This document shows, piece by piece, positions 9,093-40,108 of a stretch of 64,000 bases of DNA. The position numbers were made by a program, and so were the translations under genes. Source of the stretch: Tetmemena sp. SeJ-2015 (lineage: Eukaryota; Ciliophora; Spirotrichea; Sporadotrichida; Oxytrichidae); contig JAJKFJ010022051.1 of assembly GCA_027382625.1 (NCBI GenBank), positions 1-64,000 on the forward strand, written 5' to 3'. Every line of letters starts with the position of its first letter. The stretch's first letter is position 1. The notes beneath the pieces were generated by a model. The model had not been told where the DNA came from. It was given only the letters and a program-made list of their open reading frames with translations, and did no database searches.

Positions 9093-10095
9093 ATGATACT
9101 ACTACTTCGCTTTAAAACTATTAATCCAAATAGAGATAGTTTAGCCTATTTTGGCTATCAACTAATTAGCAGACTTGTAGGAATAACTCCAGCTATAGTC
9201 AGAAATATTTGTCTCAATTAAATTAATGACAACCAAAATAAATAAACTACTAGTAATCGAAAACAACACAATCAAGTTAGGAATTTAAACTTAGAACATC
9301 TCCAATTTTTAGTTTCTCAAGAAACATTAATTTAACAAGCAGGCATGAGCTTGGCAGAATGATGCATTATGTTCCACAGAAAGTTTCCTGATCTTTTCCT
9401 CTCTAGTTCTAAACTGAGGTCAATTTATTTCAAGAATAACATAAAGCGAAAAGCAATTGTAACTTTAAAACATCAGACAAACAAATAGCAATAAAAAATT
9501 CAAGTACTAGAGCAAGAGATGATGAGCCTCATACAAAACTCTATTGACGAGAGAAGAGAACTTCTGTTTGTCGATGAAGTAATGTTCACTACAGCAACAA
9601 AGCTTTGATTAGATTACAGCAACAGGAATGATAATATCAAAGTTAAGGATAAACTTTACACTTAGTCAAGTTATGCAGTAGTTTGTGGGATCTCTATTTC
9701 CAAAGGAAATGAATTATTTTACACTCATGAAAGGTCTATTGACACAGATAAGTTTATGGATTTCATCCTAGGAGCTCATGAAATTTTCAAGAATAGAAAA
9801 TTAACAATATTATTGGATAACTTAAGAGTTCATCACAGTAAAAGAGTAAAAGCTCTTTGCAAAGATTTATAAATTGAGCTCATATTTACTTTATTCCCCA
9901 TAATTCAACCCCATAGAAAACTTTTTCTCCCTATTGAAGAACCAATATAAAAGAATGAAGATGAGAGCATCCCTCAAGAATGAAAAAATTAATGCAAGAA
10001 AATTAATTACTTAATCCTTCAGCAATATAGATGATAGCATAGTTTAATAGTTATGTGTGAATAAACTTATTAAGTTAGGATTAATTCTTAAGTGA
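9093..10095 (+). pseudogene. Tc1/mariner-IS630 (TBE-like) DDE transposase, damaged
   Basis: With TAA/TAG as Gln the frame encodes an N-terminal helix-turn-helix-like region (LISRLVGITPAIVRN), the first catalytic Asp in LLFVDEVMF, the second in ILLDNLRVH and the Glu in SPQFNPIENFF, giving D-x33/34-E spacing as in Tc1/mariner and TBE transposases. This enzyme class cuts and rejoins transposon ends. Two in-frame TGAs (9360, 9606) and one 1-base shift before SPQF break the frame. The second TGA aligns with Lys in the copy at 39 kb, so it looks like a mutation. The gene ends 7 bp from the convergent 25-kDa ORF. The start is uncertain; the frame is open from about 9012. Confidence 0.85.
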
Positions 10096-11297: not shown

Positions 11298-13969
11298 ATG
11301 AAGGAAGATAGGAGCGCACTCTATGACAGTGATGACTCTCGATGTGATGATGACTCCAGCTTTGAAGAGGAAGATTTAACTAAAGCTTCAAAAGCTCACA
11401 TCAAAGCAAAATAAAAGTAATCAAAGCAAAATATTTTGGGAGAGAGAAGTAAGTGCTCTACAAATAGTTATTTGTTTATAGAGTCAAAGGAATAGCATGG
11501 ATTAGCAAGCAACGAAGATGCAATTGAAATCCTATAAAAAATCACAAAAGGATTTAAGCTCACAATGAAAGACATCCAAAACCATAAACTATTGAAAACA
11601 CATCCCCTTTCTGATTATGAAGTTGATGAAATAAGAGACTTCATTAGGGTAAAGAGATAAAAACTCTAAAGACAAAATCCATAACTTTCCTCTCTTAAAG
11701 AGGAACAAGATGACCTTCTCAATTATCTTTCCAACTATTATCTTGAACAATAAAAAGAAAGTGTGATGCAAATAAAATAAGAAAAGCTAGCTATCTAAAT
11801 AACTCCCCTCTAAAACCAAGAGACTTAATTACAGTAAATCAAAATTTCCAAATTTATTTTGGAAAACTATAACGCCTTGAGAATGGAGATAAGCTTCTCG
11901 TTCAAAAATCACTCATAGAAAAGCTTTATCGAGGATCTAAAATTAATGATAAATTGTCAAGAGTATTAAATAAATCGTGAGTAAGAAAAATTAGAAAAGT
12001 TATTTAAGAATAGAGAATTAGACTCATTAAATCTAGAGCTTAAAAAGTTGAATATCAATCAAGTCCTCAATATACATTTCAGAATGTCAAAGTATTGACA
12101 TCATTGTAGTATGAAGGATAAACTCTATTCCACACCTTATATCCATTCTTGAACTCTACTAAAATTGCTGATAAGATTAGTGATTAAAAGCAAGACATTT
12201 TCAAACAAATGATTCTAACTCTCAACCGATATTTGCAAGACAATGACATTCCCTATAACCCTCACTTTATTGGGCTACTTTCTGAACTTTGTCCATTGAT
12301 ACTTAGGGATAATAATTAATTAGAGGAACACTCCGCTGCAATAGAAACTTATGTCAAAGAGCTTGGTTTTAATCCTATTGAGTCTGAACTGATTTCTAAA
12401 AATCCTAAAAATTTCTTTTGGCCTGGCTTCATTAAGAAACTTTAAAGTTGCTGTCAAAAATCAAAATAGGTATTGATAGAATTCATTTCTAAAATATAAG
12501 TTCTCTCCGATCCCTATATTAGTTTAGACGAGCTTCTAAAACTCCTAAGATGTAGAGACATTTTGTTTACTCTTGTTAACAAACAAATAAAATAAAGCTG
12601 CCTCTTGAAAGATGCTTGGTGATTCTTTAATCAATAAAAGATTTCCAAAAACAAGACATCATCAATGTTCTTGAATTAGATGAATAAAACTGGATGAGAG
12701 AAATTGCAAAAAGAACATCTTAAAGCTCAACTAAGAAGTTAGAGTAATGTAGGAATGCAGACACCAACTAATAAATTTTTGAAGAAACAATTAAGGAATT
12801 CCATTAAAAGAGAGAAGTAACTTTGGAAGAATTGATGCAAATTTCAGAAAAAGTTGAGAATGTTTGTGACTAATATAAAACATAATGAATATTAAGCAAC
12901 AATCGCAGCTACTGTTTTGAGCTGCTCGAGTAGCACTATCCAATGTCATCTGCCAACTGCATCGGGCAAAACTTGGATTATTAGTTTAATCGCAGAATAT
13001 TGGAAATAGAGAGGAAAGAAAGTTTTGATCATAGTCCTATATGATATCCTCAAAACATAAGCACAGAGATAACTTCTTCCTCTCGGAATAAATTTGAGTA
13101 TTGAAACTATAGAAAATTTTTATGGACAAAAGAATGTTCATGAAATCACAATCGTGGATGAGTACGACTAGATAATTACAGCTCATCCTTTTAAAGTAAT
13201 TCAAGGAAAAATTTTTGGAATTTGGGATATGACTCTAACACAATTTTATCTTTTCAGCGCTACTTGTGATCCTGGCATATAAAGAATCATTCAAAAAACT
13301 TTAGGATAAACTAAAATCCTTTAATTTTAAAGTGAAGTTGAGTATGTGTCAGGAATTCAGTAAGACTTAGGAGGAGATATAGAGATATTCAAGAAGTAAT
13401 CTGAAAGAGTGGATCACACAATTAAGTTTATTGAGAAGTACTCTAAGCACATTCCTTTGATTATCTTTTGCGATCAAGACACTCATGATAAATACGAGAA
13501 AATAATCAAACAATTAGGAATAACCAATTTTAGGAGAGGGGTGTCAGTAGAAAATTTAGATGAAATATAGCAATGGCACTCAGGAGTTTTTATGCTAAGC
13601 CCTGAGGAGTGTTGTGGCTACAATACTAGATTTAGATAGGATGCTAAAGTAATAATTTCTTGCAACATAACTTCTGAGAGTCAGTATTAGTAGATGAGAG
13701 GCAGAAGCTCCCGAACTAGAGGAATACTGTAGTCAGTCTATCTAGCAGTGAGTAACTAATCCAAGAGCTAGATCATTCAAGGCATGAAGTAACTTTCAAT
13801 GCAGCAATTATTTGATGTTGAGAAACTACTCGAACTAGTTTACAAACGAAGGAATACTAAACTTCTCATAGAGACTCTTTAACAAACTGCTGAAAATAAG
13901 GATGATATCAGATCTTTATAGCATTTAAAGCAAGTTATCGGCGAAAAAGATTTCAGACGACTACTTTGA
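11298..13969 (+). CDS. superfamily-2 DExx helicase, ~890 residues
   Basis: ATG at 11298 begins an acidic N-terminus (MKEDRSALYDSDDSRCDDDS) and a long Gln/Lys-rich, coiled-coil-like region. From about 12,890 a 359-codon frame holds helicase motifs in order: a YQATIAATV block, motif I LPTASGKT, motif II VDEYD, motif III FSAT and motif VI QMRGRSSR. Such proteins use ATP to move on nucleic acid. The gene uses dozens of TAA/TAG as Gln and ends at TGA 13967. Three 1-base shifts (near 12,095, 12,625 and 12,880) interrupt an otherwise UGA-free reading; they may be sequencing errors or early decay. Its position beside the transposase and 25-kDa genes suggests it belongs to the same element or locus. 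The exact SF2 family is not assigned. Confidence 0.8.
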
Positions 13970-18289: not shown

Positions 18290-18702
18290 TTTAATTAAAA
18301 TCGATGATTGATTAAAATAATAAATGGAGAGTTGCAAAATGGTGACAGTTGAAATCGCAGATTCACCCCCTGATCTGCAGCTTGTTCGATAGCTTATTTA
18401 AAATTAATATGAGTTTCTTCTTTAATCATCTCCTCAGCACCTCTCAGCAGCGAGATATGATGTGCGCAGTGATCTCAAATCCTAATATCAGTTTCAGCAA
18501 AACTTGTGTCGCTTATAACTCTGTATTGAGCGATCCCACACAAAAGTTGCAAGGATGAAAAGTTCTTAAAATTTGATGCTGAATCGAATGGTGTAATAAT
18601 TATTCAAATCTGAGATACTTCAACAGTCACGATTTTAATCCATTTTAATTTAATATCTAATTTAATTCTCTTTTTTATTAAATTCTCAGCTATAATTCAT
18701 TA
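18290..18702 (+). repeat. ~410-bp repeat, copy c, ORF cut by mobile element
   Basis: Third copy. ATG at 18339 begins MVTVEIADSPPDLQLVRQL and remains UGA-free to the end of the repeat (ttctcagctataatt). There the GC-rich element inserted, so the reading frame now runs into foreign DNA and stops at a TGA near 18,783. The insertion therefore post-dates the spread of this repeat. Confidence 0.75.
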
Positions 18703-18710
18703 GAATTAAA
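18703..18710. repeat. 8-bp target-site duplication, left
   Basis: gaattaaa directly precedes the element end gggtagtgggtccc and is repeated exactly at 22,445-22,452 after the other end. Confidence 0.9.
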
Positions 18711-18840
18711 GGGTAGTGGGTCCCGGACCGCACAGGGGTTTCCCCACACCCGCACATATGTCCCCAGACTGCACGTGAGGCCTGAGTCAGTATGTGCGGT
18801 CTCGGTACCGCACATATATTACCCCAGACCGCACATATAT
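18711..18840. repeat. left terminal inverted repeat and subterminal motifs
   Basis: After the 14-bp perfect end, the motif ccgcacatat recurs at 18,750, 18,808 and 18,829, and inverted at 18,791. The pair tatgtgcggt / accgcacata (18,791-18,816) is a perfect 10-bp inverted repeat around a 6-base spacer. Such arrays are typical transposase-binding sites. One inverted copy lies near the right end (22,345-22,354). Confidence 0.7.
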
Positions 18841-18945
18841 TTCAAGTCATCGTAAATGTTCTCTGTATCTTAATCAATATGTTTCACACATGAATTTTAA
18901 TTGGCTAGATTGGTGTTCTTATCTTAGCAGATATTATTACAAATT

Positions 18946-19038
18946 TAATAGGTATAACAGCTATTTATAACATTGGTATATTGTCATAAATTTAAATGTC
19001 AATATACCAATGTTAGGAAAAGCTGTTTTACCTATAAA
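18946..19038. repeat. long imperfect hairpin inside the GC-rich element
   Basis: The arms aacattggtatattg (18,969-18,983) and caatataccaatgtt (19,000-19,014) are perfectly complementary. An outer arm, ataggtataacagct, pairs with agctgttttacctat with one mismatch. This 90-base AT-rich palindrome stands out in a GC-rich element and could be a nested MITE or a structured regulatory site. Confidence 0.7.
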
Positions 19039-19133
19039 TAATAAAAATAATATAATAGTTGATTTAAATCGGTATTGAGTAGTTAATCATTTCCAGTATT
19101 AAATTAATAGTAAGGTGTGAAATATCTGTATTA

Positions 19134-19719
19134 ATGAACGCCACTCAAGAGAGCAGATAACGCAAGCGGAATCTGGTCGAGTTCCTCTAATATTATGATA
19201 ACTTCAACTATATCGCACCTCACATACCATACCTAGACCTCATAACCTTTTTGATAGGCATGGGTAGTCCGAGTCCTCTCGTCCAAACAAAGAGGTGGAG
19301 TTCACCAAAGCAGAGAATCAGGGCCAAGCACACAGCCGATCAGTAGTTACTTGCCATTGGCTGAGCTACGGGACCGTTTACAATGACCATAAAATCCTGC
19401 CCAGCTACAATCAAGAGGCCAAATTCATAGGCATCAAAGCCATCACTGTCGTGATGATCGTCCAGAGGTAACGCCGCAACGATTTCATCCAGGAATCGAG
19501 GAGATCCAACTGAAAAGGAGTGCGTAAGATAACCTGTGAGATCGAGGCGCGCATCACCAATGCCAAGCACCTGCTAGAGATGGCACACACGAGCCTCAAA
19601 TAGCGCATTGACTACTACTCTACTAAGTGCGATTAGGGGCACCCAGGGTCAGCCCGGCCACGCTAGCCAAGCTCTTCCTTAGGAACGAGATATACTTCCG
19701 CTCAGGCAGCTGCTACTGA
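19134..19719 (+). pseudogene. element ORF 1, unknown, basic
   Basis: ATG at 19134 begins MNATQESRQRKRNLVEFLQY. After about 50 codons the coding appears to shift frame and continue as SYGTVYNDHKILPSYNQ and KFIGIKAITVVMIVQRQRRN. It passes one in-frame TGA, reads ITNAKHLLEMAHTSLKQR, shifts again and ends LAKLFLRNEIYFRSGSCY-stop at 19,717. Basic stretches and high G+C support real coding. It converges on ORF 2. No domain recognised. Confidence 0.45.
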
Positions 19720-19760
19720 TAGATTCGCAAGGGCTAGCGGCACCGGGACATCTAAAGGAG

Positions 19761-20407
19761 TCAGTAGGACCGCCTGGCCCAACACTGACCCTGTGAAATG
19801 GATCGCTTCAGCTTGCTCTTCCTTCTCTACTCTATTAACATCTTTTGAATCTCCATCCGCTGGCCAAGCTTGGCCCTCTGGTCCTGGAGGCGTAGGAGCA
19901 TAAATGACTGCTTTCTCTAGCTGAGGAAGGAAAATCGCTGTGCCGACAACTTTGTCTTGGAGATAGGCAGCCTTTCGAGGAAGCTCCACTACATATCCAC
20001 AGTCTTCTGGCTCGGCCTTGTGGAAGCCTTGAACAGAAGATTGTACCCCTTCTTGAAGATCTAGTCGACTGGCTTGTACATGGAAAGTATGGTCAAGAGC
20101 CACACTCTATCAGCCATTTGCTACTTATCCATCAAGATGCACACTTTGTCCCTCCCTGCAACTTCCTAGGGCTTGGAAAAAAAGATATCTAATGAGGGGG
20201 AATGGGACAAGTCAGTAGTCTTATCTCTTCATACGTGGCACACCAGACTACGCCTACAATCACGTGCAGTAGGTACTATTCGGCCACTTCTTTACTCATT
20301 AGCTGGGGCAATAAGTAGCCATTCCTCTGCGTGGCATCGTTCAGCTCCTGCTTACTCTTAATAAAGGAGCTCACCTAGAAGGAAGTCTTGTTATTCGAGG
20401 GATCCAT
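19761..20407 (-). CDS. element ORF 2, unknown (~215 residues, one frameshift)
   Basis: On the minus strand ATG at 20407 begins MDPSNNKTSFQVSSFIKSKQ. The frame continues through MSKEVAEQYLLHVIVGVVW, shifts once near 20,210, then reads DKVCILMDKQQMADRVWLL and a basic C-terminus, ending at TGA 19,761. UARs serve as Gln. The composition and the ATG start are convincing. A standard-code frame on the same strand (19,702-20,103) is a shadow of this one. Function unknown. Confidence 0.55.
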
Positions 20408-20648
20408 AACTTTATAGACGATACTAATAATTATAAATGAACATGGAGATAACTTATAGCTTTAAGATGTATGGTTTCACCTGCTTCACTCGAGTAAGGT
20501 AAAAAAAATGAAGTGGCACAACCTGAGTAATTGGCTTAGAATCAGTTAGGCAATTTTTAAACGCACTTAATTAAATATAATAATCACTCTCATACTCTGT
20601 CGTCCCTATTGCTATTATCCTTTGTATTACTCTTAGTCTCCCTCTTAC

Positions 20649-21074
20649 TCATATTCGCCTTTAAGCCATCACCAGGTCACTTTGAATCACCAAATCCTCA
20701 TTGAGGGTAATCTTGAACACACTCTCCCTGGAAGATATGCAAGCTAGGTCCAGTACTCCTCCCAGCACATCACCCAGGGCGTAGGTGTAGCTGCAGGACT
20801 CGAAGAATCGATCATAATGGATGAGCATGGACTTGCAGAACTACAGTCTGCGCTTCCTAAGAATGAAATTCACCTTGCTCGAAAATGACTACTGGAGTAA
20901 ATGAATATGGCCTGATTCTTTGTTGAGTGTATCCTTGAGAATAGCCTCTCTTCTCTTGACCGAGGCCTTGATGGTATTGAAGCTTTAATCTGCATAAGCT
21001 TTCTTCAAGAGCTCGGATGGACTTGCACTTTTGATATTGGTTACTCGAGGCTTCAAGGCGGCATCAACCATCAT
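20649..21074 (-). CDS. element ORF 3, unknown (141 residues, intact)
   Basis: ATG at 21074 starts MMVDAALKPRVTNIKSASPS, and the frame is clean for 141 codons to TGA at 20,649 with four UAR codons as Gln. The N-terminal half is basic and helical-looking (KASVKRREAILKDTLNKES). The C-terminal half contains YDRFFESCSYTYALGDVLGG. It is the best-preserved gene of the element. It lies upstream of ORF 2 on the same strand. No family recognised. Confidence 0.65.
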
Positions 21075-21238
21075 TAGAGACCTCCTTAAATAGGAGTAAG
21101 GTTTAAGTTTTTTAAGTCATACAATACTCCAGGTTTAGAGCCTTTGCTGTAGCGAGTTGTATCTCGTCTTGACTTAGGGGGTCCTTGGGAACCTAATTAA
21201 GCTTTTCCCAAAGCTTTTATGGAGAGCGGGGCCCAAGC

Positions 21239-21614
21239 ATGACAAAGTTTAGAGCAGCATCTTTGAACGTGGTGAGCTAGTTGAGGCCATCTGATCAAAT
21301 GCTCAACTTCTCTATTGCAGAGGTGATGTATGAAGAGGTTATGGGGCTAGATCTTTGATTGAGAGTTAAAGACTATTGAACATCTAGGATTCGACCATTC
21401 CAGCATGCCTCTCGATGAGCACGATTACCTGTTCTGAGAGATCTATGAGGCCCTGATCAAGAGCCACAGACTCGAGTCCACTTTCTGGGTGAGCTTTGAG
21501 AATCTCAACGAGGTCGGGGACCTTGCCAAGATGGAATAGGAGGGGCCCGGGGACAGCATGTAGAGCTAGTAGTGCAAATAACCATCTAGAAGGAGCTTGG
21601 GGGCGTTTGGCTGA
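21239..21614 (+). pseudogene. element ORF 4, unknown, acidic
   Basis: ATG at 21239 begins MTKFRAASLNVVSQLRPSDQ and reads IAEVMYEEVMGLDL before a frame change near 21,355. Coding resumes as LKTIEHLGFDHSSMPLDEHD, crosses one TGA and reads EIYEALIKSHRLESTFWVSF, then NLNEVGDLAKMEQE. The composition is acidic and clearly protein-like. No domain recognised. It is transcribed away from ORF 3. Confidence 0.45.
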
Positions 21615-22444
21615 ACCAAGCTTGGTATATAGAGAGAACCTTTGGCAGGTGGCGAAAATAGGTTTATCTTTTTAATGCTTTGGGACTAGCTTTCTGCAGA
21701 ATACATATGAATCCCCCTAGCTCTTTGAGTGTGGGGTAGGGGGAACGTCGAAATCCCAAAAGGTTGGCTTGCTTTCTCGTTGGATCCAAAATATTTGCCC
21801 CTTTTCAGGTAAGCTTGACTTGATCTCTTGCTGGGTTTGGAGTATCGGAAGTGGGCAAGGGTGGGGGTAATATGGAATGGTTTGGCCCGTCAAGCTCTGA
21901 ATCACATTCGTAGGGTAAACATGAGGCCCGGGAAAATTTTAGTGTTTAGGCTCAGGGGGGCCCTGTGGGTTTTTATGAAATATATTAAAAATAGTAAAAT
22001 TCACCAAACAAATACCTTAATGATCCCAGGGCTTTACTTACTGAAAAAGTAAATTTTTGGTAATTGAAATTTTAACTAAATACTGCTAGGCCCTTTTTCC
22101 CGTGGTAGCAGTTGGGGGGCCTCAAACCGATCGAAAAAAATTAAGTATCCCTTTGATTTTATTTTATTTTTTTATCAAAAATTTATAAAAACCCGAATAA
22201 GGTGAAACCCAAACTAGCCAATTAAAATTATGTTTGAAACATGTTGATTAAAATAAAAGAGGGAAATTTACGATGATTAAAAATATGTGGGGGTACCCGG
22301 GGCCCCCATACTGAAATTTAGGCCCCAAAGTGGGTTTGGGGGGCATATGTGCGGTTTGGGGAAACCCCCGTGGGTCCCGGGGCCCCAGTGCGGTGTGGGA
22401 AACCCCGTGCGGTCCGGGACCGCGTGTTGTGGGACCCACTACCC

Positions 22445-22452
22445 GAATTAAA
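22445..22452. repeat. 8-bp target-site duplication, right
   Basis: gaattaaa immediately follows the right terminus (ggacccactaccc), identical to 18,703-18,710. Confidence 0.9.
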
Positions 22453-23329
22453 CTAAAGACCTCGATATAGCATTTTAAATGAATAACGAATAAAAGTGCA
22501 TGCAAACTTTTTCTTTCATTATATTTATAAATCTAAAGAAAAGTATTAGGAATTTTGCAGCCTCCCATTCAATTCATTATATAATAAAATAGCAAATATT
22601 TGCCTTTCAAACTTCAATATAAGATTTAAGCACCACTAAAGTTCTTGTAATTTTTTTTTATATTTATTCAATCTGTGGTTCTTCAAGTTGTGCCATTTAT
22701 TATTGAGAGATTGATTTTTCTTTGTAATCATATAAAAAATATTATAAATTGAGAATATATAATCCCTTCGAATCCTATTATTTATCTTAGAATAAATCCT
22801 TTTAAAAAGTTAAAAGTATTTAAAGAATATTTTTTGACTAATTTTTGAGAAAATTTAAAATTTTTAAACCCCAAAGGGAAAAAAATTTTAAATTGCTGAC
22901 ACGGTCTTTTCTTATAAATTTTAAAAATTTAAATTTCCCCAGGCTTCTCCCCCGGGGTAATTCAATACAAGCTTAATAGAAAGAATTTACTAAATTGAAA
23001 TCTAATCTAATATAGATTTAAAATATTTTAATTTTTTGTTTTTAAAATTTTAAAAAAATAAAGGAAAAGTTTTAAATTTCGTTTCGGCTTTAAAAAGCTA
23101 AAATTTGAATTTGCTTGATATATTCTTTATTTTTTCATAACTTTGCCAATTAAAAAAAATATTATGACAAAATAACTCTTTTTTGCGCTGACCTTCGGCG
23201 AAGAAATCGTAAAAATGTAAGTGTCCAAGAAATTGCATTCTCAATCAAATTTCATAAAATTTAAAAAAATTTTTAAATTTTTCCTTTTTTATTTTTTTTT
23301 TCTATAAAATTTTAACCCTTCAGCCCCCC
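22453..23329. other. AT-rich DNA with homopolymer-rich patches
   Basis: No gene seen. From about 22,850 on, long runs of A, T and occasional G/C doublets resemble poorly corrected long-read sequence. Confidence 0.4.
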
Positions 23330-23650
23330 ATTTTTTTAAAAACCCTTTTAATTCCTTTGGGAAGGCCCGGAAAAGAGGCGAAAAACATTTTTTTTTCAAA
23401 AGTGTTAAAAAAAATAAGTATTCAAGACTCCTTTCAAACCGAGTATTGCTAGAAAAAAATTTTAAAAAAAGGTAATTTTACTTTTTTTAAAAAACCCCCA
23501 AATTTTTTTAAAAAAAAAATGCAACATGCCAATTATGGAGGGATTTGAAGTTACTTCTCTAAAGGTTAGTAAAAAAAACTAAAAACTGTTGCTACTTACT
23601 GTAAAAGCTGGCTTCTTATTTAGTAGTGAAAAATCGGGGATGGAAAGATA
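23330..23650 (+). repeat. dispersed AT-rich repeat, copy 1
   Basis: Resembles 32,890-33,210 in the same orientation. Shared blocks are gagtattgcta..ggtaattttac against caagtattgcta..gataattttac, and gttgctactta..ctggcttctta..aatcgggg against gttactactt..ctggcttccta..aatcgggg. Both copies sit in homopolymer-rich sequence. No coding content recognised. Confidence 0.5.
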
Positions 23651-24481
23651 ATATTATTCTTAAATATGTTTTCATTATTTTTTTAGAAATAGGCTAGGAA
23701 ATCATGTATAGTAATAAAATTAAATGCTAAATAGAAATATATGTATATTTAACTTTAAGCATTATTTTAATTATTTTTTCTTTAAAATATTTTTTTGATA
23801 AGCTTCATTTTATTTATTATGTATAATTAAGCATCTATGTAAAAAAATACAAAAAATAATTTAAAAAAATAATTAGATATTTATCAGACCCACTTGCTAC
23901 GAATTAAATAAGACATATAGTTTCTTAAGAATTGTTTTTCTAATTTTAGATTTAAGACAGTCTTAAGAAATATTTTTAAAGAATATTGTTTAGTTATAGA
24001 AATTCTCATTTTTAAAAATATATAAAATTTAAATTATCCTAGACCCCATTGTTATTTTTATAAATTTAATTCACTTATCATGTTAAATTAATTATAAATA
24101 TATTAAAATTAATTTTGAAATTAGAAATTTGGACAAATAATTGGCAGTTGAAGTGTAACTAATTTATAAAATTAATACAATTTTTATTGAGCATCAAATT
24201 TCAAAATATTTTTATCTAACAACTTTTTTATAGGATCTCTCAGTATAAACGACACCATTATATATTTTTAGCATAAAAAATAAAGAAATTTATTTTTTCA
24301 TCAAAATTATCTTCTATAGTGAAACTTTAAGATAATTTAAGAAAAACTCAATTGAAATTTGAATTACTTTTGAGAAAAATCTTAAGATCTTTGATTTTAA
24401 AACCATTTTAACTGCCTCCATTTTGTAATTTCTCATTTAATATTTAACAAACATAAATTATAATTAAATTTAAAACTATAA
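23651..24481. other. AT-rich stretch, no gene seen
   Basis: No supported feature on either strand. Confidence 0.5.
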
Positions 24482-25250
24482 TTAAATAGTTTGTCTGTGC
24501 TCTAGGGTATAATAGATTAAAATATATAATGTTATAGATGGAGAAATCTCCTTTGAAAAGTATTTAATGTTTATAAATCGATGTCGAGGATCTTCGAAAT
24601 AGTATAAAGCAACAAGACGAGGAAAATAAAACGGAAGATAAAAGTTCTCAAAAGTAATAAAGCTCCAATCCTTAGAGCATTTTGAAAACAGATAGATAAC
24701 AAAAATTAGAGAATGATATCTTAAATTAATTTTTATTTCACGAGAGGTGCTACTATATAACGTGCTCAGGGTTTCTGAAGGAAAAAACTTAAAGTGCAAT
24801 AATTTGAATAATATGGAAATTATCCATAAGTACGTTAGTTACGCAAAAATTATTTTTCTCATATTCAAGCTTACTCAAACTATCCTTGCAAGACTTTGAG
24901 GAGGAATAGTAACTTGTAATAAGGCTGAGAGAAGTACTCAACCTCGTTATTCCAATTCCTGAAGTGTGAGCTACCTTCTCATACTCTTGATGGGATTTCA
25001 AGGAATTCTAGAGTCATAAGGTGGATTAATGGAGTCCTGGGCTCTTAGCATTTCGCTAAACTAAGACTGAGTTATTTTTAAATAATTTCCCAATTATTGC
25101 TGATTCAATACAAAGGGTTGCGATTTTAAAAATTTTGCTTAAAAAACTTAGTCCTTTATTTATGATAAATAATTTATGAAAATAAATAGATCTTTTGAAA
25201 GTAATAGCACTGTACAAAGCCAACCATAATCCAGAGTTTAGCAAAATATT
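24482..25250 (-). pseudogene. minus-strand coding island, unknown
   Basis: Three consecutive minus-strand tracts stay open even under the standard code. One of 105 codons (24,482-24,799) includes FYFPRLVALYYFEDPRHRF, an improbable length here for a frame avoiding all three stops. It is preceded by SHQEYEKVAHTSGIG (24,789-25,001) and by LNSGLWLALYSAITF (25,056-25,244). They lie in different frames, so frameshifts or splitting are required. Hydrophobic and aromatic residues dominate. No family recognised. Confidence 0.35.
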
Positions 25251-38689: not shown

Positions 38690-39030
38690 ATGTAGTCACC
38701 CTTATCAGTAGTAATAGCCAGTTCTCAACATCAACTCCATCGCAAAAATGTTGAGAGTGCCACACTATACTCTCGCATTTGAAAGTTGCTGATGAGAAAG
38801 TTAGGAGTTGCAGCTGTTCCTCATCGTACTTCTATGTTTCAAGATGTGCACATCAATTATTTGATTGATCCTCAAACTCTTTGCCACTAAGCGCACTTCA
38901 GTTTGGAGTAGCGCGAGAAGATCTTTCATAGATAGTTTCCTTATCTCAAGATCTCTCCGTAGACTGTAGCAAACATCTATCGTTGAAATGACATAACGTA
39001 CAAAACTGTGAATCGAGTGAAGCGCGTTAT
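38690..39030 (-). pseudogene. 'region A' small ORF, copy 2
   Basis: Minus strand reads YNALHSIHSFVRYV, SLRRDLEIRKLSMKDLLALL and INQIIDVHILKHR with shifts. It is antisense to the transposase that starts just to its right, where a transposase N-terminal DNA-binding domain would be expected. Confidence 0.5.
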
Positions 39031-39063
39031 AGACTTCTAAGCCATTTTATTATAATAATCTGA

Positions 39064-39648
39064 AATATATTTACACTGCTCAGGTGTGAGAGGGATAGCG
39101 TGAAGTTTGTATGTGCTGACAAAGCTGTGTTCACACACAACACCTTCATGAAGAAGAGTTGGTACAAGAAGCACGATAACATAGAAGTTTACGAGTAGAA
39201 AGTAAATATAACTACAAGTGCGTTACTTGCAGGAATCAGCTTAGAAGCTTATGTCCTTCATCCTCGCTCTATCAAGCGAGAGCAGTATGTTGCGTTCCTT
39301 AAGAAGCTCAGAGAGAAGATCACAGACGGTGAGATCGTTCTACTCGTTGACAACCTCAGCGTACACAAGACAAAGGAAGCGAAGAAGGCATACGCTGAGT
39401 TGAACATCACTCCTGTTTTTAATGTTCCATACTCGCCAGAGTTCAACGGCATTGAGTTTTACTGGAACTTAGTTAAGGGACACTATAAGAAGCTGCTGCT
39501 CTATCACTTGATGCATGATTAAGCTATCGATACAGAGGATTTAATAGTGAGTAGTTGTAAGAGAGTGGAAGAAGAGAAGACAAAGTTATGTGCGAGATAA
39601 GGTAGAGTGAATATTTAGGAAAAGTATTTAAGCTTAACTTAAAGCTGA
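39064..39648 (+). CDS. TBE-like DDE transposase, catalytic domain intact
   Basis: A 194-codon UGA-free frame carries all three catalytic residues: Asp in FVCADKAVFTHNT, Asp in LLVDNLSVH and Glu in YSPEFNGIEFYW, with exactly 34 residues between the last two (DD34E). W in MKKSWYKKHDNIEV and the basic LVKGHYKKLLL tail are typical of the Tc1/IS630 class. Four UARs are read as Gln (for example VYEQKVN). The N-terminal helix-turn-helix half seen in the 9-kb copy is missing upstream of a TGA at 39,061, so the product could perhaps cut DNA but would lack the usual end-binding domain. Confidence 0.85.
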
Positions 39649-39654
39649 CTTAAG

Positions 39655-40108
39655 TCACTTTTGCTTATCTAGGAAGAAGGGATTCAGGTTCCTTTCTCTC
39701 TTCTGTTGGGCCAGATGGACCTAGCTTCCTCATCTTCGAACCTGCTCCCGCATCTATGTGCATCTCGTCGTCCCTAAGTTTGTATAGTGATAGACGCTTG
39801 CTCACCTCGATGCTTGTATTTTGCTTCCGTGCTCTGAATACCTTTGCTCTCTCCTTCATTAAGTAGATGCCAGTGCCAGGTTTCTCTACACAGTTAAACT
39901 CTAAAACTTACTAGAGAAGTAGGGATACTTCTGAAGCTGCTCAAACCATTCGTCGCTGATAACTATTCCTTGCTTCTTTGGGTCGTTCTCCTCTACTTAG
40001 AATCTCTTCCTGTGTGCAATCTTCAATGATCTCTTTGAGGTACTCTGCACGTACAGTAGCAAGGACGCAAAGAAGAACCTTCGTTTTGGCAACTTGTTTG
40101 AGAGTTGT
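39655..40108 (-). pseudogene. TBE-like 25-kDa accessory protein, copy 2, partial
   Basis: Minus strand reads VLATVRAEYLKEII, VISDEWFEQLQKYPYFSSK, EKPGTGIYLMKERAKVF and VSKRLSLYKLRDDEM, followed by a Pro/Glu-rich tail; small indels break the frame near 40,020. It converges on the transposase as in the 9-10 kb cluster. No TGA closes it before the transposase gene, so its end is uncertain. Confidence 0.7.

Follow-up and report, generated by a model that had tools for sequence, protein, structure and literature searches.

Tc1/mariner/IS630 transposons of ciliates include the TBE elements of Oxytricha, to which an excerpt of PMC4724952 ascribes a reverse-strand accessory open reading frame (ORF) and 3-bp ANT duplications, and the Tec elements of Euplotes, which have three ORFs, ORF1 encoding a Tc1/mariner-type transposase (PMC9797194, in excerpt). 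In Blepharisma, Bogo makes TAA/TTA duplications and BstTc1 carries a DDE_3 domain (both PMC9942856, in excerpt). Merlin elements, as portrayed in part of PMC8101967, have repeats of 24-462 bp with a terminal GG and 8- or 9-bp duplications, and Merlin homologues occur in 24 of 33 ciliate genomes. Here, we describe a 3.7-kb element from the ciliate Tetmemena sp. SeJ-2015, found in a 64,000-nucleotide stretch (contig JAJKFJ010022051.1, positions 1 to 64,000; hereafter the window). With a probability of about 0.86, it is a composite, non-autonomous DNA transposon: an outer inverted-repeat element that carries a broken Tc1/IS630-like passenger and is moved in trans.

The outer element covers 3,734 bp (18711-22444) and its ends, GGGTAGTGGGTCCC, are exact 14-bp inverted copies of each other (18711-18724 on the + strand, 22431-22444 on the - strand), flanked by an exact 8-bp duplication, gaattaaa. 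Beyond these ends the two arms are related, with gaps, across ~200-240 bp. In the 1-kb bins that lie wholly within the element, three in number (19001-22000), the guanine-plus-cytosine (GC) content is 0.425-0.464; outside it, most 1-kb bins of the window lie at 0.20-0.33, with a maximum of 0.414 at 39001-40000. A preliminary description, made from the letters of the window alone, had proposed a mobile 3.7-kb inverted-repeat insertion on the strength of the ends, the gaattaaa duplications and a step in GC content, all of which we confirm. The left flank (18600-18697) belongs to a very abundant repeat (1436 candidates in a first-look search), at or near the border of which the element lies.

The same outer family recurs in the window's source assembly (146 Mb, 5213 contigs). 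The left 228 bp gave 54 matches (40 of the 45 candidates scored), a figure that counts the window itself and short secondary matches at places already counted. The end GGGTRGTGGGTCCC was counted 42 times, 25 of them in forward and 17 in reverse orientation, with the window's two included; a reversed-pattern control was counted once. Perfect 8-bp duplications, all different (GAATTAAA, TAATTAAA, TTTTTATT, TTTATTTT and TAATATAT), flank five of the eight elements read at both ends, which is what the preliminary description had suggested looking for; the other flanks agree at 7/8 bases (L065), 6/8 (L066) and 2/8 (L026). This set of eight leaves aside the end pair C3388, three loci with one recognisable end (L009, L014, L015) and others that run off contig ends. 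By our own arithmetic, for DNA of similar composition, a perfect 8-bp match would arise by chance in ~1 in 10,000 cases per element. The different duplications show that the composite moved by its outer ends.

Composite copies align to most of the window element, and the outer-family elements that we read span 219 bp (L066) to 7.9 kb. L065, at 6.18 kb, has another interior, part of which is a further abundant repeat. A second element with similar ends lies near the right end of the inner relic in L010. Outer elements are often invaded by other repeats. The interior of L065 also holds a near-perfect palindrome (L065:2025-2488) with 165-nt arms at 99%.

What lies between the outer ends became readable through distant relatives. 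When the window copy, L011 and L065 were scanned against Pfam in six frames, no transposase domain emerged; the only hint, in L011, was HTH_SB at E 0.071, short of the threshold. Genome searches with pieces of the interior found more distant relatives elsewhere (~71-83% identity), four of which were fetched with their surroundings (L059-L062). In L059, an open frame of 478 amino acids matches PF13358 DDE_3 at 6.1e-26, and the family profile A3 matches the Sleeping Beauty catalytic domain (5cr4) at 2.3e-6. Residues D302, D380 and E414 (L059 numbering) are invariant in all seven aligned sequences and are taken as the putative catalytic triad. A set of 5.8 billion proteins yielded 7751 scored candidates, seven of which passed E 0.001 as relatives; the best of them aligned over 56% of the query, at 59% identity. 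Intact relatives encode the DDE_3 transposase together with accessory ORFs on the opposite strand.

Set against these relatives, ORFs 1-3 of the window element are the remains of a separate Tc1/IS630-like (DDE_3) transposon lodged in the outer element. ORF1 and ORF2 are broken, their translated matches falling in three and two frames, respectively. The ORF1 match to the L059 transposase stops short of D302, and a ~640-bp deletion covers the region of D302, D380 and E414, so the window copy is without a catalytic core; six-frame Pfam scans of this copy likewise found no DDE_3-type catalytic domain. No working enzyme can be read from the composite. Two claims of the preliminary description therefore need correction: the ORFs were said to show no transposase signature, which ORF1 does once intact relatives are brought in (the N-terminal part of a DDE_3 transposase), and possibly to represent a new transposon family or novel genes, where ORFs 1-3 are gene relics of a nested transposon that has ends of its own and duplicates 3 bp, and so stand neither for a new family nor for working novel genes in this copy. 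The proposed ORF order holds for ORFs 1-3 (+ - -). The reading of UAR as glutamine holds for the genome, which has open, constrained ORFs with in-frame TAA/TAG, and cannot be demonstrated from the broken ORFs themselves.

The boundaries of the inner relic are given by free copies of its family. At 23 of 23 free-relative loci, or 21 places (L040/L060 and L041/L061 being identical places), the match begins at window positions 19033-19055 (Table 1). Free copies start with TAGTTGGTTTAT and end with ATAAACCAACTA, with variants. All 11 copies read at both ends (11 places) duplicate 3 bp, TTA/TAA, rather than the TA by which Tc1/mariner/IS630 elements are recognised, and wherever both flanking bases can be seen (10 copies) the target is C-TWA-G. 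These counts come from 19 printed end pairs, of which 12 were flagged as duplications; eight pairs, including one flagged, were excluded because their left matches were due to chance. The 11 copies are derivatives of 2,168-2,285 bp (for example L061:856-3140; family L042-L062), most of them without the ORF2-ORF3 part. In the intact-type L059, L060 and L062 the left end alone is seen, preceded by CTTA in 3/3. In the window copy, the last three bases before the relic are taa, and taa is found again to its right. Further DDE_3 matches lie at 39106-39492 (3.1e-16) and 9561-9890 (1.3e-11), and the window thus contains several Tc1/IS630-like transposons or relics.

The junctions between the inner and outer parts bear on how the composite arose. 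The left junction reads ctaataa|TAGTTRG in eight of the nine other composites, L012 being divergent there, and the right junction reads CAA|TAAGG in four (L010, L011, L012 and L014). The common left junction points to a single nesting event followed by multiplication via the outer ends; judged from the sequences, one nesting event before the spread of the composite is most likely.

Codon-level comparisons separate the free family from the passenger. Between L059 and L060, mismatches concentrate at third codon positions, with phase counts of 8/41/11 and 12/42/17 for the transposase and 49/10/18 for accessory protein B. Codon phase is flat among ten aligned composite copies and even between the composite L010 and L060. 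The free family has been under codon-level selection, of which no sign is seen when copies of the composite passenger are compared with one another.

Taken together, these observations suggest the following order of events. The mobile unit is the outer inverted-repeat element, defined by its GGGTRGTGGGTCCC ends and 8-bp duplication; no enzyme encoded by this element itself was found. Into the inner part of its right arm, a Tc1/IS630-like transposon, complete with ends, a transposase and accessory genes of its own, would have inserted once, leaving taa on both sides. The catalytic core of this passenger, now missing, would have been lost afterwards. The composite would have multiplied as one unit, its outer ends being recognised by an enzyme supplied in trans. 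The inner and outer ends differ both in sequence and in duplication length. We infer that the enzyme acts in trans; it would come from a superfamily that makes 8-bp duplications, with Merlin the best fit by the ends.

Several observations weigh against this composite reading. No enzyme that would move the outer ends was found, and no outer element with the same arms and without the inner relic was seen. In the window copy the left inner flank is ataTAA, not ctaaTAA, and the right inner junction is altered in three other composites (L009, L015, L026) and unplaced in two (L013, L017). The flanks of the short L066 and of the composite L026 are imperfect (6/8 and 2/8, as above), and the joined flanks of the window element, used as a query for an empty site, matched in halves only, so that no empty site turned up among the best 40 of 1436 candidates. 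The 3-bp duplications of the inner family were read in short derivatives, the intact copies being seen by their left end alone. Finally, L010 shows one biased block against L059 and against L062 (29/53/20 each), which we attribute to the coding history of the L059/L062 side.

Table 1. Parts of the composite element and their positions in the window
Feature	Position	Strand	Remark
8-bp target-site duplication, left copy	18703..18710	.	gaattaaa
Left terminal inverted repeat of the outer element	18711..18922	+	GC-rich, with CCGCAC motifs; approximate inner boundary
Left-arm-only part of the outer element	18923..19055	.	hairpin arms 18945-18987 / 18996-19038
Nested Tc1/IS630-like transposon relic	19056..22197	+	starts TAGTTGATTTAAAT, ends AAAACCCGAA; free-relative matches at 23 loci start 19033-19055
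ORF1 relic: N-terminal (helix-turn-helix) part of DDE_3 transposase	19134..19769	+	three frames; matches L059 to residue 277
Deletion junction	19769..19770	.	~640 bp present in L060 (1572-2211) missing
ORF2 relic: homologue of 268-amino-acid accessory protein	19800..20452	-	L059:2163-2966 (-); two frames
ORF3 relic: homologue of large accessory protein	20655..21173	-	L059:3992-5242 (-)
ORF4 region	21317..22020	.	DNA-level match to free relatives; coding frame undecided
Right arm, including right terminal inverted repeat of the outer element	22198..22444	-	run-rich stretch
8-bp target-site duplication, right copy	22445..22452	.	gaattaaa

Which superfamily would move the outer ends is a question within the composite reading, and the answer that fares best is Merlin (IS1595-type): a Merlin transposase encoded elsewhere would cut the GGG... 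ends and make the 8-bp duplications. We hold this tentatively, as possible and somewhat short of an even chance. The outer element has a terminal GGG, ~200-240-bp arms and an 8-bp duplication (perfect in 5/8), which agrees with the arms of 24-462 bp starting with GG and the 8- or 9-bp duplications given for Merlin in the excerpt of PMC8101967, and the genome holds 12 DDE_Tnp_IS1595 matches, all above cut-off. Yet none of the 12 is on a contig with an exact GGGTRGTGGGTCCC end, and between the outer ends of the three copies scanned against Pfam in six frames (the window copy, L011, L065) no DDE_Tnp_IS1595 transposase was detected. The two matches that we read (L071 and L072, 2.5 kb each) have long open ORFs and weak 20-21-nt flanking repeats (75-76%), and no such outer end lies in L072 within the 2.5 kb read, allowing ≤3 mismatches. 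An autonomous copy of the outer element may be absent from the assembly. The Merlin-domain ORFs themselves (L071:369-1811 and L072:538-1962) are possibly host genes derived from transposases.

Alternatively, the outer family, with its GGGTRGTGGGTCCC ends, CCGCACGTGCGG palindromes in the arms and 8-bp duplication, would be a DNA-transposon superfamily not yet described, with a so far unrecognised enzyme; we regard this as unlikely. A Rep-/helicase-like gene, present in the L010 insert and in L024, was at first taken as the outer element's gene and then dropped, because in L024, L063 and L064 it lies inside separate ~2.2-kb elements (L064:1434-3709, L063:2777-5069 and L024:2368-4614), which may or may not hold for the L010 insert. 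These ~2.2-kb elements have inverted repeats of 54-64 bp (97-100%) and carry one gene each, for a protein of 465-502 amino acids with a Walker A-like motif that matches DUF5906 at 3.9e-4 (below its cut-off) and a PHROG DNA primase at 1.2e-4. They have 95 genome matches, including fragments, with third-position constraint in the gene, and none of 8000 scored candidates was a homologue of the protein at E ≤ 1e-3; these elements are possibly more novel than the composite itself. Elsewhere in the window, a 371-amino-acid ORF (12854-13969) resembles DEAD/ResIII helicases (1.8e-5, 5e-5).

Outer ends of Mutator-like type, with the inner relic as cargo, are more doubtful still. Long arms, an 8-bp duplication and foreign cargo recall Pack-MULEs, and the genome has five MULE-domain matches above cut-off. 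They are few, however, and near the cut-off (best 4.6e-5, 30.7 vs 27.6 bits), none is on a contig with an exact outer end, and no MULE transposase came up between the outer ends when the window copy, L011 and L065 were scanned in six frames; moreover, the cargo has its own ends and duplication and so arrived by transposition. The hAT dimerisation domain had no match in the genome, nor in the control genomes.

That the whole is a single element, the GC-rich arms being longer ends of a Tc1/IS630-like subfamily that moves itself with an unusual 8-bp duplication, is very improbable: inner and outer parts do occur together in composites, but free Tc1-like copies end at the boundary of the inner relic and duplicate 3 bp, and the outer ends enclose other interiors in L065 and L066. 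An assembly chimera or plain segmental duplication, which the run-rich right third and the many copies that stop at contig ends might suggest, is the least probable explanation of all, since five elements carry perfect 8-bp duplications that differ from one another and the structure recurs on different contigs.

The right third nevertheless calls for care. The fraction of bases in runs of at least 4 is 0.03-0.06 at 19000-21500 and 0.18-0.43 at 21500-24500, and 0.09-0.15 in the AT-rich DNA left of the element; identity of the window copy to L010 is 90-94% in 19211-21710 and 79-80% further right. The 21500-24500 stretch, including the right third of the element, is probably poorly polished sequence, in which single letters are unreliable; the ends and duplications are nevertheless exact.

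The composite illustrates that ORFs within a mobile element need not be its own, since a broken transposon can ride between unrelated ends. It also offers a test system in a genome with a ciliate code, where a Tc1/IS630-like family that targets C-TWA-G and has its accessory genes under constraint stands beside a family that makes 8-bp duplications.

The inner family is of the Tc1/IS630 type, its intact members carrying a DDE_3 transposase gene and opposite-strand accessory ORFs. As far as the excerpts cited above go, the inner family shares with TBE a reverse-strand accessory ORF and 3-bp duplications, and with Bogo the TAA/TTA duplications seen in its free copies. Unlike TBE, Tec, Bogo and BstTc1, it has its own ends (TAGTTGGTTTAT), without a telomere repeat, the target C-TWA-G, a different set of accessory genes and 33 residues separating the second D from the E; the window copy has lost its catalytic core by deletion. 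With Merlin (IS1595/IS1016-related), as set out in part of PMC8101967, the outer element has in common the terminal GG, the 8-bp duplication and the arm length. It differs from Merlin in the CCGCACGTGCGG palindromes of its arms and in that no Merlin transposase was found between the outer ends of the three copies scanned. In Pack-MULEs and other non-autonomous elements with foreign cargo, as here, coding DNA of foreign origin is multiplied by two mobile ends. Unlike the cargo of Pack-MULEs, the cargo here is itself a transposon, now broken, which made its own insertion; what is particular to this locus is a dead transposon as the passenger of an element that makes 8-bp duplications.

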